NCBI RefSeq assembly: GCF_022869165.1
Contig: NZ_CP094929.1
Coordinates: forward strand, 1,178,001-1,242,000
From: Sphaerochaeta associata
Lineage (GTDB): Bacteria; Spirochaetota; Spirochaetia; Sphaerochaetales; Sphaerochaetaceae
DNA length: 64,000 bases
Direction: 5' to 3'
Shown: piece after piece, positions 19,887 to 25,334 of the stretch
Position numbering within the stretch: position 1 is the first letter of the stretch
How the letters are laid out: the number at the start of each line of letters is the position of its first letter
Translations under genes and position numbers: made by a program
The notes under the pieces: generated by a model
What the model saw: the letters and a program-made list of their open reading frames with translations, nothing else
What the model was told of the DNA's origin: nothing
Database searches by the model: none

Positions 19887-20999
19887 TTATAAGAAGAATT
19901 TGCTACTTAATGACAATACCGACACAAGCACGGCTCCTGCAATGAAGAGGCCTGTGTTGATTCCTCTCTTTTGCTTGCCCGGTATGTTTGGCGCTGTCTC
20001 TGCACGTGCAACCCGTAAAAGCGTCTGGTCCACGCGCTCGGTCAAGCTTCCCTTGGTCGAGCGGAAGGATGTGGAGAGAAGACCGAAGTAGGAGAGAGTG
20101 AGTAAAAGGATTGCTCCGCCTTTTCCCTTGAGCTTGGGGTTGCTGGCCACCAGGCACTGGCTGGCTGCAAGCAGGCTCATCAGGCGCAGGGCTTTGCCCA
20201 GGGCGAGGATGAGCGAGCCTTCTGTGAAGGCTGCCGAACCAAGGGAGAGGAGTACCTTTCCGTTGGGTTCGAACAAGCTGAGTAGAATCAGCGAAAGAAG
20301 GAGCATCAGAGGGGGCAGCAGGCGCAGCCTCCTGCCGCTTATGATCTGCAGGAAGTACATAAGGGCGGTAACCAATGCCAAGACCAGCAAGCCTTCGGCT
20401 GTGATGATGGCAATGATGCAGAGCAGGCTTGCAAAGGCAACCGCGGGATAGTGTTTTGCTTCCTCGGTAAGGGGAATGGAGAGTTCAAGTGTCTCTTCAA
20501 CGAATGCTTTGGGCAGGGTTCCTTTCTGCAGGTAGAGTTCTGCAAGAAGTCCGAGGACAAGGCTTGAAACCACGCCGAGGGTGAGCATGAGCGGGGCTGC
20601 GATCCAGATGGAAGGGCCGTATGCGACCAGAGAGGCGACCTGAAGCTGGGCGAGGTTGCTGACAAAAGCTCCGGCTATGCTGCAGCCGATCAGCGATACC
20701 TTCCCTCCAAGCGCTGTTTTCAGTGCTTTCATGGCCAAGCCGCTGGATACGGTGCCTGCAAGGGAGATGAAGAAGAGGTAGGAGAACAGCGTGCCTGAGA
20801 CCATTCCTTGTCCGATGGCCTTGAGCAGCAGCACGATGCTGTAGGCCTTCAGGCTGAAGGTGTTAAGAATGAGGAGAAGCGGAAGGTTTGCAAGTCCGAG
20901 CCTGAGGAAAGGAAGGGGCTTGGGGATGAGGTACTCCAGGGTGGAGAGCAGCAGTGTGACTGCAGCGACAAAGGCGATTTTCCGTTCAGTTCGTGACAT
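19887..20999 (-). CDS. Gx transporter family membrane protein (EetB-like; Hpre_diP_synt_I domain)
   Basis: 370 residues. The N-terminal 170 residues form five or six hydrophobic helices with the Gly-rich signature region RLGLANLPLLL and GTLFSYLFFISLAGTVSSG. This matches proteins annotated as heptaprenyl diphosphate synthase component I, or Gx transporter family. The C-terminal half adds a second hydrophobic block and a basic tail. The start at 20999 is preferred over 21023 because GGAGG lies 6 nt upstream. It overlaps the NusG-II gene by 14 bp. As I recall, the same pair is called eetA-eetB in flavin-based extracellular electron transfer loci of Listeria; that role here is inference. Confidence 0.75.
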   Translation of the reverse strand: MSRTERKIAFVAAVTLLLSTLEYLIPKPLPFLRLGLANLPLLLILNTFSLKAYSIVLLLKAIGQGMVSGTLFSYLFFISLAGTVSSGLAMKALKTALGGKVSLIGCSIAGAFVSNLAQLQVASLVAYGPSIWIAAPLMLTLGVVSSLVLGLLAELYLQKGTLPKAFVEETLELSIPLTEEAKHYPAVAFASLLCIIAIITAEGLLVLALVTALMYFLQIISGRRLRLLPPLMLLLSLILLSLFEPNGKVLLSLGSAAFTEGSLILALGKALRLMSLLAASQCLVASNPKLKGKGGAILLLTLSYFGLLSTSFRSTKGSLTERVDQTLLRVARAETAPNIPGKQKRGINTGLFIAGAVLVSVLSLSSKFFL

Positions 21000-21363
21000 C
21001 GTCCACCTCCATGTCTCCTTCACTCTCTCCGACGATGGTCAGCAGGATTTGGTTGGGCAGGCAGGCGATCCAGCTTCTTGCACTGAAGATGGGCCGTTGT
21101 TGGGTGCAGCTTTTGGTGGGACAGGCTGAATCGTGGATGTGGGCTCTGCCGTCCTCGATGATGATGTGCGTATCGCCAAGCGGTCCTTGTACGTGGATCT
21201 CCCTGTCGGTTGCAAGTGCGTAGCGGTAGGTGCCGTCGTGCGTCTGTACCTGCAGATAGCCGCTGCCGGAACTGAGGGTATTGCCGCTGATCCATAGGAT
21301 GGCGGCAATCGCAAGGCCGAGTATGACTATATCGGTGAGCAGCGTGACAGGCGGACGTTTCAT
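20986..21363 (-). CDS. NusG domain II-containing protein (EetA-like)
   Basis: 125 residues: an N-terminal membrane anchor (about 8-30, LLTDIVILGLAIAAILWISG) and an extracytoplasmic NusG-II-type beta domain. The domain ends with the conserved Cys pair DSACPTKSCTQQ and CLPNQILLTIVG. Family members are always small anchored proteins next to Gx transporters, often with ApbE. An ApbE lipoprotein is encoded about 20 kb away here. There is no ribosome-binding site. A promoter abuts the start, so the mRNA is probably leaderless. Confidence 0.8.
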   Translation of the reverse strand: MKRPPVTLLTDIVILGLAIAAILWISGNTLSSGSGYLQVQTHDGTYRYALATDREIHVQGPLGDTHIIIEDGRAHIHDSACPTKSCTQQRPIFSARSWIACLPNQILLTIVGESEGDMEVDDVTN

Positions 21364-21472: not shown

Positions 21473-21502
21473 TTGACAGTTGGTTCACACTATGCGTATT
21501 AT
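21473..21502 (+). promoter_or_regulatory. Promoter of the two-component operon
   Basis: TTGACA (21473-21478), an 18-nt spacer and TATTAT (21497-21502) predict a start near 21509 and an 80-nt 5' leader. The leader contains the palindrome CGCTTG-T-CAAGCG (21553-21565), which may be a binding site or a small hairpin. Confidence 0.5.
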
Positions 21503-21589
21503 GATTAGGCATTGTGAAGATATTGTGTAGTAATGTGTTGACTGACCACAAACGCTTGTCAAGCGAACGAAGGTATGGTGATGTGATTT

Positions 21590-22315
21590 ATGAAAGTGAT
21601 TTATGTTGTTGATGGCAATCTTGAGGATCGGGAAGGGATCAAGCAGTACCTTGAATTGTCCGGTTATGAGGTGCAGGCGTACGAGGACCTGCACGGGGTG
21701 CAGATGGCTATTTCACGCCAGGCTCCCGACTTGTTGTTGTTGGAGGTTCAGTTGCCCGATGGCGATGGCTTTAACTTTTTAAAGAAGTTGAAGCAGTCAT
21801 ACTCCTTTCCGGTGATTTTTGTGACGGGACGGGTGGCTGAGAGCGACAGGATTCTGGGCTTCGAATTGGGTTCGGACGACTATGTCTGCAAGCCGTTCAG
21901 TTCGAAGGAGCTTGTGCTCAGGGTGCATGCCCTGTTTCGAAGGATCGATGTCAGCGTCTCTGCGTTCCGCAGTGGTTCGACCTGGACGCTTGGCAATTCG
22001 GTTCTGCAGCTTGATGAGGTGTCGCACATGTTCAGTGTCGATGGAAGGCAGGTTCCCCTTACTGCTGCAGAGTGGAGGATTATGAGTTATTTGGTGAGCA
22101 ACAGTGGAATTCTCATCACCCGGTCCCAGATTCTGGAGCACTGCTTCGACTATAGCTTCGAGTCGTACGATCGAATCGTCGATACCCATGTGAAGAACAT
22201 GCGGGCGAAAATGGGGCCGCTTGGTTCGCAGTGGATCGAGACGGTGCGCGGGTATGGATACCGGTTCGCCGGCAAGAGTACTTCCGGCAAGCCGGGAAGT
22301 GAAGGTCAGGATTAA
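21590..22315 (+). CDS. OmpR-family response regulator with degenerate receiver
   Basis: 241 residues: receiver (1-115) and winged-helix DNA-binding domain (about 130-232, ending VRGYGYRFAGK). The phosphoacceptor Asp is replaced by Glu52 (LLLLEVQLPDGDG), and the second Asp of the metal-binding pair by Gly9 (YVVDGN). Thr79 and Lys101 remain. Phosphorylation by the usual chemistry should be impossible, and Glu may mimic the active state. Its recognition region (RSQILEHCFDYSFESYDRIV) is nearly the same as that of the next gene, so both may bind the same sites. Three bases separate it from the second regulator. The ribosome site is weak. Confidence 0.88.
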   Translation: MKVIYVVDGNLEDREGIKQYLELSGYEVQAYEDLHGVQMAISRQAPDLLLLEVQLPDGDGFNFLKKLKQSYSFPVIFVTGRVAESDRILGFELGSDDYVCKPFSSKELVLRVHALFRRIDVSVSAFRSGSTWTLGNSVLQLDEVSHMFSVDGRQVPLTAAEWRIMSYLVSNSGILITRSQILEHCFDYSFESYDRIVDTHVKNMRAKMGPLGSQWIETVRGYGYRFAGKSTSGKPGSEGQD

Positions 22316-22318
22316 GCT

Positions 22319-23044
22319 ATGGCAGACCAAAAACAAGAGATCAAAGAGCTTATTTATATCGTTGAGGATCACGAGGTGATACGTGAGGGGGTGCGCCAGT
22401 ACCTGGAGCTCTCCGGCTATGCCGTTCGTGGGTTTGCCAATCTGAAGAGCGCCCGTGAGGCGTTTGCAGCCCAAGTCCCTTCCTTGTTGATTCAGGATGT
22501 GATGCTGCCCGACGGCGATGGCTTTGCGTTTGTGAAGCAGCTGAAGGAGAAAACCGATTGTCCGGTGATCTTCATGACAGCCCGCACCGAGGAGAGCGAC
22601 CGCATCCTGGGTTTTGAGCTTGGCGCCGATGACTACATTTCCAAGCCATTCTCGCCCAAGGAGTTGGTGCTGAGAGTCCAGGCGGTGCTGCGAAGGTACC
22701 GAAACGGCAGCTACGAACCCAGTGACGGCCTGCTCTATGTAGGGGAACACTGGATGCGTTTCGATGAGCAGGATCACCGCTTGGAGGTGGATGACAATCT
22801 GGTCATTCTCACTGCAGCGGAGTGGAGGATTCTCTCCCATTTGATTCAGAATTCCCATCACTTGGTTTCGCGCTCCCAGATTCTGGAGGAGTGTTTTGAT
22901 TATTCGGTTGAATCGTATGAGCGGGTGGTGGACACCCATATCAAGAACATCCGCTCCAAGCTCGGCGACGGGCCTTGGATCGAGACGGTGCGCGGCTATG
23001 GCTACCGCTTCATCGGTCATGAGAGAGAAAGAGCAGAGGTATGA
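22319..23044 (+). CDS. OmpR-family response regulator (canonical receiver)
   Basis: 241 residues and a close paralogue of the preceding gene. The receiver has the full set: Glu16-Asp17, phosphoacceptor Asp60 in LLIQDVMLPDGDG, Thr87 and Lys109. The C-terminal winged helix carries RSQILEECFDYSVESYERVV. It is the likely partner of the kinase whose ATG overlaps its stop (ATGA-type, 4 bp). The tandem pair probably arose by duplication followed by decay of the first receiver. Confidence 0.93.
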   Translation: MADQKQEIKELIYIVEDHEVIREGVRQYLELSGYAVRGFANLKSAREAFAAQVPSLLIQDVMLPDGDGFAFVKQLKEKTDCPVIFMTARTEESDRILGFELGADDYISKPFSPKELVLRVQAVLRRYRNGSYEPSDGLLYVGEHWMRFDEQDHRLEVDDNLVILTAAEWRILSHLIQNSHHLVSRSQILEECFDYSVESYERVVDTHIKNIRSKLGDGPWIETVRGYGYRFIGHERERAEV

Positions 23045-24534
23045 GAAAGCAATTTGTACGACTATTCCTAAGTTTTGTGTTGGTGCTTGCCGTTGTGTTG
23101 GGCATCCAGGGGATCGTCGTGTTTGCAAGCCTGCAAAATCAACGTGCTTCCTGGACCGAGTCGGTGTTTCAGGAGTATTTGGATACCTTCACTGCCAATC
23201 TGAAGGCCGGGCTCTCCAGCACGCCTTCCTCGTTCTTCGCCATCGAGCAGTTGCTGCTTGTTTCAGCCGATGACCGCGTCAGCGGTTTGTATATCCGTAA
23301 TCCCGATGGAACGGTAGCCGTTGCCTATGGGAATACCAGCAGCGGTAATTCGCTTCCCATCCCAAGGCCGAGACCCTCTGAGGGGCCGATGACGACGATG
23401 CACCACGATCTCCCAATGGCTGAGGAGGCGATAGGTGATCAGGGTTTCACCTCTTCTGAGATGCACAGTGATGTGTATGTGGTAAAGATTTTGCAATCGG
23501 GTTCGGTGACTTCGCTCATGGTGAGCAAGCAGAGTGAGCGGCAGAAGCAGACGGTTTTACTTCCGCCTCAGGTAAAGGCCAACGATATTGCAGGCAGTCT
23601 GGTGATCATGTACAACAATGAGGTGCTGGGGATGGTCGACGTGCTGACGTACACTCCCTTTACCTATAAGAATACGGGCAGGCTGTTCAAGGGCTTGCTC
23701 TACCCCTTCCTGTGGGCGATGCCGTTCGCCTTCATTATTGCTCTTTTGATGGCTGCCTCGGTATCCAGACGCAGCCAGCGCTATACCAGCGGTATCCAAG
23801 CAGCGCTTCAGCATCTCTCCAGCGGGGAGAACGGTGTCGAGCTTCCTTCCACCAAGATTGATGAGCAGAAGGTGATCAATGCTTCCATTCAACAGTTGGA
23901 TGAGAACTTGTTACTCAACAAGGTGAGCAGGCAGGCATGGCTTAGAAGCATCAGTCATGATCTCAATACCCCGGTTGCCAGCATGAAGCTCTTGCTTGAT
24001 GGGATGTCCGACGGGGTGTTCCCTGTTACTGAACAGATGCTTAGAAACCTGAAGAGGGAGAACGATACGCTCTCCGATCGTATTGCCTTGGTTTCCCTGT
24101 ATGCAAATCTACAAAGTCCCGACACAAAAGCCACACAATCGGAGCTTGATGTCGCTTCGTTCATCCAACAGGTATTCGATGCGTTCTCCGACGAGCAGAA
24201 GGACCGCATCTATATTGATGCCGATGATGCCCGGCTGATAGCCGACCAGAAACTCCTTTCCTATGCTTGCAAGGCTCTTTTGTCAAATGCCTTGCAAGCA
24301 AGCGATGAGTCGGTGGGGTGGGCGATCGGGGAGAACTGCATGACCTTCACCAATACGGGACATTTGGCTGAGGGCATCGATTTCTTCGAGCCCTGGACGA
24401 AGGGCGACAGCAGCCGCGGGACTGCAGGAAGCGGTCTGGGACTTCCAATCGTCAAGCAGGTGATGCGCCTGCATCAGGGGACGGCAATCATAGAAGAGCG
24501 TGAGGGCAATGTGATTGTCAGCCTCAGATGGTGA
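23041..24534 (+). CDS. Membrane sensor histidine kinase
   Basis: 497 residues: transmembrane helix 1 (about 8-30), an extracytoplasmic sensor (30-220), transmembrane helix 2 (about 224-245), a linker, the dimerisation box SISHDLNTPVASMK with His306, and the ATPase domain with LLSNALQAS (N box) and GTAGSGLGLPIVKQV (G2 box). The G1 box reads FTNTG, with Asn where Asp usually contacts adenine, a variant seen in some kinases. It should phosphorylate the second regulator upstream. The signal is unknown. Its end overlaps the convergent phosphodiesterase gene by 11 bp. Confidence 0.92.
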   Translation: MRKQFVRLFLSFVLVLAVVLGIQGIVVFASLQNQRASWTESVFQEYLDTFTANLKAGLSSTPSSFFAIEQLLLVSADDRVSGLYIRNPDGTVAVAYGNTSSGNSLPIPRPRPSEGPMTTMHHDLPMAEEAIGDQGFTSSEMHSDVYVVKILQSGSVTSLMVSKQSERQKQTVLLPPQVKANDIAGSLVIMYNNEVLGMVDVLTYTPFTYKNTGRLFKGLLYPFLWAMPFAFIIALLMAASVSRRSQRYTSGIQAALQHLSSGENGVELPSTKIDEQKVINASIQQLDENLLLNKVSRQAWLRSISHDLNTPVASMKLLLDGMSDGVFPVTEQMLRNLKRENDTLSDRIALVSLYANLQSPDTKATQSELDVASFIQQVFDAFSDEQKDRIYIDADDARLIADQKLLSYACKALLSNALQASDESVGWAIGENCMTFTNTGHLAEGIDFFEPWTKGDSSRGTAGSGLGLPIVKQVMRLHQGTAIIEEREGNVIVSLRW

Positions 24535-25063: not shown

Positions 25064-25069
25064 ACTTAT

Positions 25070-25098
25070 ATGATACTAAAATCGGTTATGTACGGCAA
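25070..25098 (-). promoter_or_regulatory. yfcE promoter, leaderless arrangement
   Basis: On the minus strand TTGCCG (25098-25093), a 17-nt spacer and TATCAT (25075-25070) are followed after 6 nt by ATG 25063. Confidence 0.55.
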
Positions 25099-25103
25099 TG
25101 TTA

Positions 25104-25334
25104 TTGACAAAGTAAAAGATATTGTCTTTGTAACCTTCTCACCAATCACACAAAGTGGGTTTGTGCACACAAATCACACACAATTGCCAAAATACCTCAC
25201 ACAACCTCAAATAAACACATACATCCATCACACTAATCCATCATTCCCACAAGACTTGTCCATTCTACTCACAAAGTGCATCAGCATACTGATGTTACAA
25301 ATAAACTCTCACGCAAAAAATGGAGATTTACGTC
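25104..25334 (+). promoter_or_regulatory. Promoter region and G-poor leader of the beta-barrel gene
   Basis: A TTGACA at 25104-25109 is the best -35. A -10 is weak (TTGTAA, 25128-25133). From about 25165 to 25250 the plus strand has almost no G and is made of CA-rich runs (CACACAA, CTCACACAAC), so the mRNA leader should be unstructured. Such a leader could favour high translation or act as a small-RNA target. The ribosome site TGGAG is at 25321-25325. Confidence 0.35.

Follow-up and report, generated by a model that had tools for sequence, protein, structure and literature searches.

Organization of the Locus

The window analyzed here is a stretch of 64,000 nucleotides from the 3.55-Mb single-contig genome of Sphaerochaeta associata. 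It holds a tight operon of two response regulators and a membrane sensor histidine kinase in the order RR1-RR2-HK, with a 3-bp gap between RR1 and RR2 and a 4-bp overlap between RR2 and the kinase gene (Table 1). Both regulators show the Response_reg (PF00072) and Trans_reg_C (PF00486) domains above the Pfam cut-offs, and RR1 has the receiver and the C-terminal winged-helix domain that define the OmpR/PhoB family. Kinase, canonical regulator and pseudo-receiver regulator thus stand together in one operon, an arrangement of the CmrRST type. A first-pass annotation had described Gly9 and Glu52 in the first receiver, a complete pocket in the second, and one kinase beside the pair; the open reading frames, coordinates and codons have all been confirmed, and the neighboring gene encodes a histidine kinase with HisKA and HATPase_c domains.

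Table 1. Features of the RR1-RR2-HK locus and its surroundings (positions within the window)
Feature	Position	Strand	Description
Divergent genes	19887-21363	-	Genes for a Gx-type membrane protein and a NusG-II-like protein; names rest on resemblance only
Predicted sigma-70-type promoter	21473..21502	+	TTGACA-N18-TATTAT; 11/12 consensus positions; block conserved in genus alignment
Candidate operator	21513..21541	+	11-bp direct repeats TGTGAAGATAT-TGTGTAGTAAT-GTGTTGA, just downstream of predicted transcription start
RR1	21590..22315	+	OmpR/PhoB-type regulator with pseudo-receiver: D8, G9, E52, T79, K101
RR1 codon GGC	21614..21616	+	Gly9, replacing the directly metal-binding second acidic residue
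RR1 codon GAG	21743..21745	+	Glu52, replacing the phospho-accepting Asp
RR1 Cys100 codon	21887-21889		Directly precedes the pocket Lys
RR2	22319..23044	+	Canonical OmpR/PhoB-type regulator: E16, D17, D60, T87, K109
Histidine kinase (HK)	23041..24534	+	Membrane sensor; HisKA 297-354, HATPase_c 402-491; start codon overlaps RR2 stop
Leader of downstream gene	25064-25334		Upstream of an outer-membrane-type gene

A pseudo-receiver is understood here as a receiver that lacks one or more of the five key residues (DD, D, T/S, K), and an aspartate-less receiver as one missing the phospho-Asp. RR1 of this genome belongs to both classes (G9 and E52), while the group of first copies includes 29 pseudo-receivers among 36 and is only partly aspartate-less, the Asp being kept in 5 of the 22 genus members. 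Among the 35 full-length receiver matches of the genome, the phospho-Asp or the second acid is missing solely in RR1 and one other, a share near the 4% published for aspartate-less receivers (PMC4395418). This other pseudo-receiver (L268, G000:C1:3125012-3125344) lies outside the window in a 678-residue open frame, and its pocket reads D-V, with Glu at the phospho-site, Ser, and Arg replacing Lys.

The AlphaFold2 model of RR1 (mean pLDDT 86.6) has shown the layout of a receiver and a winged helix, and it matches full-length OmpR/PhoB regulators, among them PrrA, MtrA and KdpE as well as the atypical RitR, CosR and HP1043. Regarding the relation between the two copies, the recognition regions had been called near-identical, which is a fair description: the helices DRIVDTHVKNMRAKM of RR1 and ERVVDTHIKNIRSKL of RR2 share 9 of 15 residues, and all six differences are conservative. 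The complete DNA-binding domains are 66% identical, the α4-β5-α5 dimer faces 80%, and the first halves of the receivers 43%; in the kinase-docking helix α1, 8 of 13 residues are alike. Within the genus, the DNA-binding domain of RR1 has been found to be the best-kept part of the pair, with a mean identity of 88% and a median dN/dS of 0.037, compared with 76% and 0.129 for that of RR2, and the receivers of both are about equally kept (78-79% mean identity). Pairwise dN/dS of RR1 amounts to ∼0-0.1, and its reading frame is intact in 22 genomes. A further observation concerns Cys100, which is invariant in 22 of 22 genus RR1s and likewise in g4 but is absent from more distant RR1s, e.g., those of G130 and G142; the RR2s paired with these RR1s have Ser or Thr at this position. 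It represents a possible redox handle.

The Pocket of RR1 Within the Genus

RR1 is present in 22 of the 26 genomes of the genus, this one counted, and its position 9 is non-acidic in every one of these orthologues (G, S, A, P, T or L). At position 52, 17 of them carry Glu and five carry Asp, among the latter the nearest relative (G018), whose RR1 is 95% identical and has the codon GAT in place of the GAG found here. No variation occurs at D8 or K101, and position 79 holds Thr or Ser. The constant trait of RR1 in the genus is thus the missing metal ligand with an acid retained at the phospho-site, not Glu52. This bears on the first-pass annotation, which had considered RR1 blind to phosphorylation on account of both residues and had taken an Asp kept at position 52 by close relatives as speaking against this. 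In the formal sense, such an Asp is what G018 and the four others have; as the second acid is missing in all 22 orthologues, Asp52 alone restores no normal pocket. The proposed blindness itself has remained well supported, with its fixed signature moved from Glu52 to the lost ligand at residue 9.

Position 52 needs two changes on a genus tree built without the pocket columns, and its history is best read as one exchange of Asp to Glu in a large subgroup and a reversion to Asp in G018. Such exchanges at the phospho-site after the loss of the metal ligand suggest that Glu52 may be just a tolerated acid rather than a purpose-made phosphomimic. In published cases, Glu alone has often been neither needed nor enough for constitutive activity (PMC4395418; PMC12632262). 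The genus pattern, with D8 and K101 retained and the second acid gone, fits that of aspartate-less receivers, in which it is usually the second acid that is lost, with the first acid and the Lys mostly retained (PMC4395418).

Origin by Duplication and Loss of the Pocket

For the tree and the tally of pocket residues, ∼110 loci of the family have been gathered. RR1 and RR2 separate on the two sides of a split with support of 98/96, so that the pair goes back to one old duplication in Sphaerochaetaceae, followed by losses of either copy. The pocket is full in all lone regulators beside a kinase, whether they belong to the RR2 clade (58/58) or to the RR1 clade (6/6; genera g5, g42 and g45), and it is canonical in all second copies of tandems (40/40). 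Among the first copies, 29 of the 36 readable ones are non-canonical and seven canonical, four more being incomplete, and both orphan RR1s without a kinase are non-canonical (2/2). The phospho-pocket is therefore lost solely in the first copy, and solely where a canonical partner exists or existed. Which residue replaces the Asp at the phospho-site depends on the lineage: most of the genus and g39 have Glu, G130 and G066 have Ala, and G064 has Ser. The tree requires 2-3 changes between canonical and pseudo pockets.

RR1 Without Partner and Kinase

In two genomes of the genus, G015 and G021, RR1 has retained its usual flanking genes and is directly followed by a yfcE-like gene, which elsewhere stands beyond the kinase. 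RR2 and the kinase are missing at the locus and elsewhere in both genomes, the best kinase matches being ∼26% identical and adjoining another regulator on another contig, and the G015 assembly is 99% complete. The deletion junction is identical in the two genomes, which is most simply explained by one shared deletion of RR2 and kinase. As many of the compared genomes are drafts, single absences are weaker than this shared one. Between the RR1s of G015 and G021, 36 silent and 2 replacement codons have been counted (dN/dS 0.03), corresponding to strong purifying selection; consequently, RR1 must serve some function that depends on neither RR2 nor the kinase. Its persistence makes it very probable that RR1 works without the kinase signal and lends indirect support to a function without phosphorylation.

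A possible second kinase loss has been noticed in G009 (L126:7994-9809), where RR2 is cut after the receiver beside an IS110-like transposase gene, RR1 is intact, and the kinase is missing genome-wide. It has been set aside as weak, since elements of this kind are places where draft assemblies may be interrupted or wrongly joined.

Predicted Promoter, Candidate Operator and Possible Targets

Regulators of the OmpR/PhoB family bind to direct repeats of about 10-11 bp, and the repeats of the candidate operator are clearly retained in 18 of 20 tandem loci of the genus. A motif model trained on the genus, with a threshold passed by 5% of shuffled sequences, has placed a site upstream of 5 of 6 RR1-only and 13 of 58 RR2-only loci. 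A family-trained motif, strong at most loci, has been dropped in favor of this genus-only model because training on the scored loci inflates the result. The candidate repeats fit a picture in which regulators of both lineages recognize similar sites and the operon is autoregulated, and their placement just after the predicted start would lead one to expect repression. At the two orphan loci (G015 and G021), the genus-trained model finds no site upstream of RR1, so that the candidate operator is dispensable for the function kept by RR1 there. A strict search for TRTGNAGNNNNTGTGNAG in ten genus genomes has yielded 0-4 sites each, and the non-operon sites whose flanks were read all lie inside genes; therefore, no target is claimed beyond the operon itself.

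The leader of the downstream outer-membrane-type gene has been considered as a target and rejected: it is G-poor and CA-rich overall, and its match to the operator is loose. This long leader contains CACA many times over, ends in a strongly conserved part that includes the small inverted repeat CATCAG-CATA-CTGATG, and is kept across the genus though the encoded protein is just 34-49% identical. The genes divergent to the operon hold their place in several genera, so that the intergenic region may act on these genes as well as on the operon. In tandems of g39 and g11 (L139, L145 and others), an operator-like repeat, weaker with the genus-only model, lies between RR1 and RR2, ∼45 bp before RR2, and suggests separate transcription of RR1 in these genera.

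Proposed Function of RR1 and Alternative Explanations

Taking the above into account, we consider it fairly likely that RR1 is a pseudo-receiver regulator of the OmpR/PhoB type that works independently of phosphorylation and probably shares its sites with the kinase-driven RR2. Both regulators derive from one old regulator duplication in a regulator-kinase operon of Sphaerochaetaceae, after which RR2 would have retained the signaling job, the kinase phosphorylating D60 and RR2-P dimerizing and binding DNA. RR1 lost the metal-binding acid, with a change of Asp52 to Glu in most of the genus, and consequently would no longer take phosphate efficiently. T79, K101, the α4-β5-α5 face and the DNA-binding domain have been kept, and RR1 therefore most likely dimerizes and binds DNA regardless of the signal; the earlier notion of an "always on" regulator is plausible. 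The output of RR1 would then be set by its level rather than by phosphorylation. It probably reads the 11-bp direct-repeat sites of RR2, among them the one that closely follows the operon promoter, at which binding would be expected to repress. In the five orthologues of the genus that combine Asp52 with Thr/Ser and Lys, to which both orphan RR1s belong, acetyl phosphate or a different kinase may still phosphorylate RR1 weakly. The modest operator match at RR2-only loci and the lack of a detected regulon count against the preferred explanation.

It is also possible, if doubtful, that RR1 acts mainly via heterodimers with RR2 or via competition with RR2-P at the operator and thereby tunes the output of the kinase, as the first-pass annotation had suggested. 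The recognition helices are alike and the dimer face is far closer between the copies than the first half of the receiver; heterodimers have been co-purified for CmrR and CmrT (PMC12548384) and described for BldM and WhiI in Streptomyces (PMC4125116, according to PMC12632262). However, the same face also serves homodimers, a general OmpR/PhoB feature, and neither mechanism explains why the DNA-binding domain of RR1 is more conserved than that of RR2. Moreover, RR1 stays under selection in G015 and G021 without RR2 or kinase, so that heterodimers or competition are not its only role. Of the earlier suggestion, shared sites find support in the helices and in the repeats upstream of RR1-only and, more weakly, RR2-only loci, but as less than the whole function of RR1. 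That RR1 serves as a decoy which docks on the kinase and lowers phosphotransfer to RR2 appears very improbable: the docking helix α1 is similar and such binding competitors have been discussed for pseudo-receivers (PMC12632262), but a decoy could do without the DNA-binding domain, which is the most strongly constrained part of the pair, and would not survive the loss of the kinase.

Rather unlikely, yet of more weight than the decoy, is a receiver that is not constitutive and still senses a ligand, a redox change via Cys100 beside Lys101, or weak phosphorylation. The RR1 receiver is as well kept in the genus as that of RR2 (78% mean identity), Cys100 is invariant there, and RitR appears as a redox-regulated atypical regulator in the reference list of PMC12548384; the absence of this Cys from distant RR1s speaks against such a role. 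The state of the first copy in genera g11 and g39, where it is frequently absent, truncated or on a long branch, would suit a decaying pseudogene, but for the genus this explanation is contradicted by the substitution pattern and the intact frame in 22 genomes, and we give it hardly any credence. Returning to a phosphorylation-independent RR1, we propose more tentatively, and somewhat short of an even call, that one copy has taken on a fixed output on the sites of the signal-driven copy, that its pocket has been lost only with a canonical partner present or past, and that one lineage has then dropped kinase and partner, giving a natural series from a two-component regulator to a one-component transcription factor.

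Comparison With Known Systems

A 2025 perspective (PMC12632262) regards the switching of bacterial pseudo-receivers between on and off as a mystery. The family described here shows several stages together, i.e., the lone canonical regulator, the canonical pair, the pair with one dead pocket, and the kinase-less orphan pseudo-receiver, each of which lends itself to phosphotransfer and DNA-binding assays. Among the papers searched for tandem regulators with a pseudo-receiver and for response regulators of Sphaerochaeta, no earlier description has been found.

ChxR of Chlamydia (PMC3960148; PMC4395418) differs from RR1 in that several pocket residues are missing. The orphan RR1s of G015 and G021 come nearest to it. 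To our knowledge, ChxR does not stand in tandem with a canonical paralogue and a kinase. HP1043 of H. pylori and CosR of Campylobacter resemble RR1 as atypical, phosphorylation-independent regulators of the OmpR/PhoB type and have been recovered as structure matches (2hqr, 8uvk), but share only ∼22-23% sequence identity with it. Both are essential regulators of the orphan type, and the receiver of HP1043 is highly degenerate. BldM and WhiI of Streptomyces are likewise atypical regulators, acting as a homodimer (BldM) or a heterodimer (PMC4125116), but they differ in being not co-transcribed and having no known partner kinase, according to PMC12548384 and PMC12632262, respectively.

The closest known system in arrangement and residues is CmrRST of Clostridioides difficile, in which two OmpR-family regulators and one kinase are encoded in one operon (PMC12548384; PMC12632262). 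CmrT shows the same changes as RR1, with D9-G10 and E53 replacing the acid pair and the phospho-Asp and with T and K retained; it forms homodimers and has been inferred to be constitutively active (PMC12548384). The likeness lies in arrangement and residues. CmrR and CmrT have been described as unlikely to have arisen by duplication; CmrT is encoded at the end of the operon, and the site bound by CmrR is an inverted repeat. In Sphaerochaetaceae, by contrast, the regulators are true duplicates with the pseudo-receiver copy in front, the candidate site consists of direct repeats, and RR1 has outlived its partners in some genomes. Intermediate and end stages of this duplication have been preserved, which provides an unusually clear evolutionary record for a system of a known kind.
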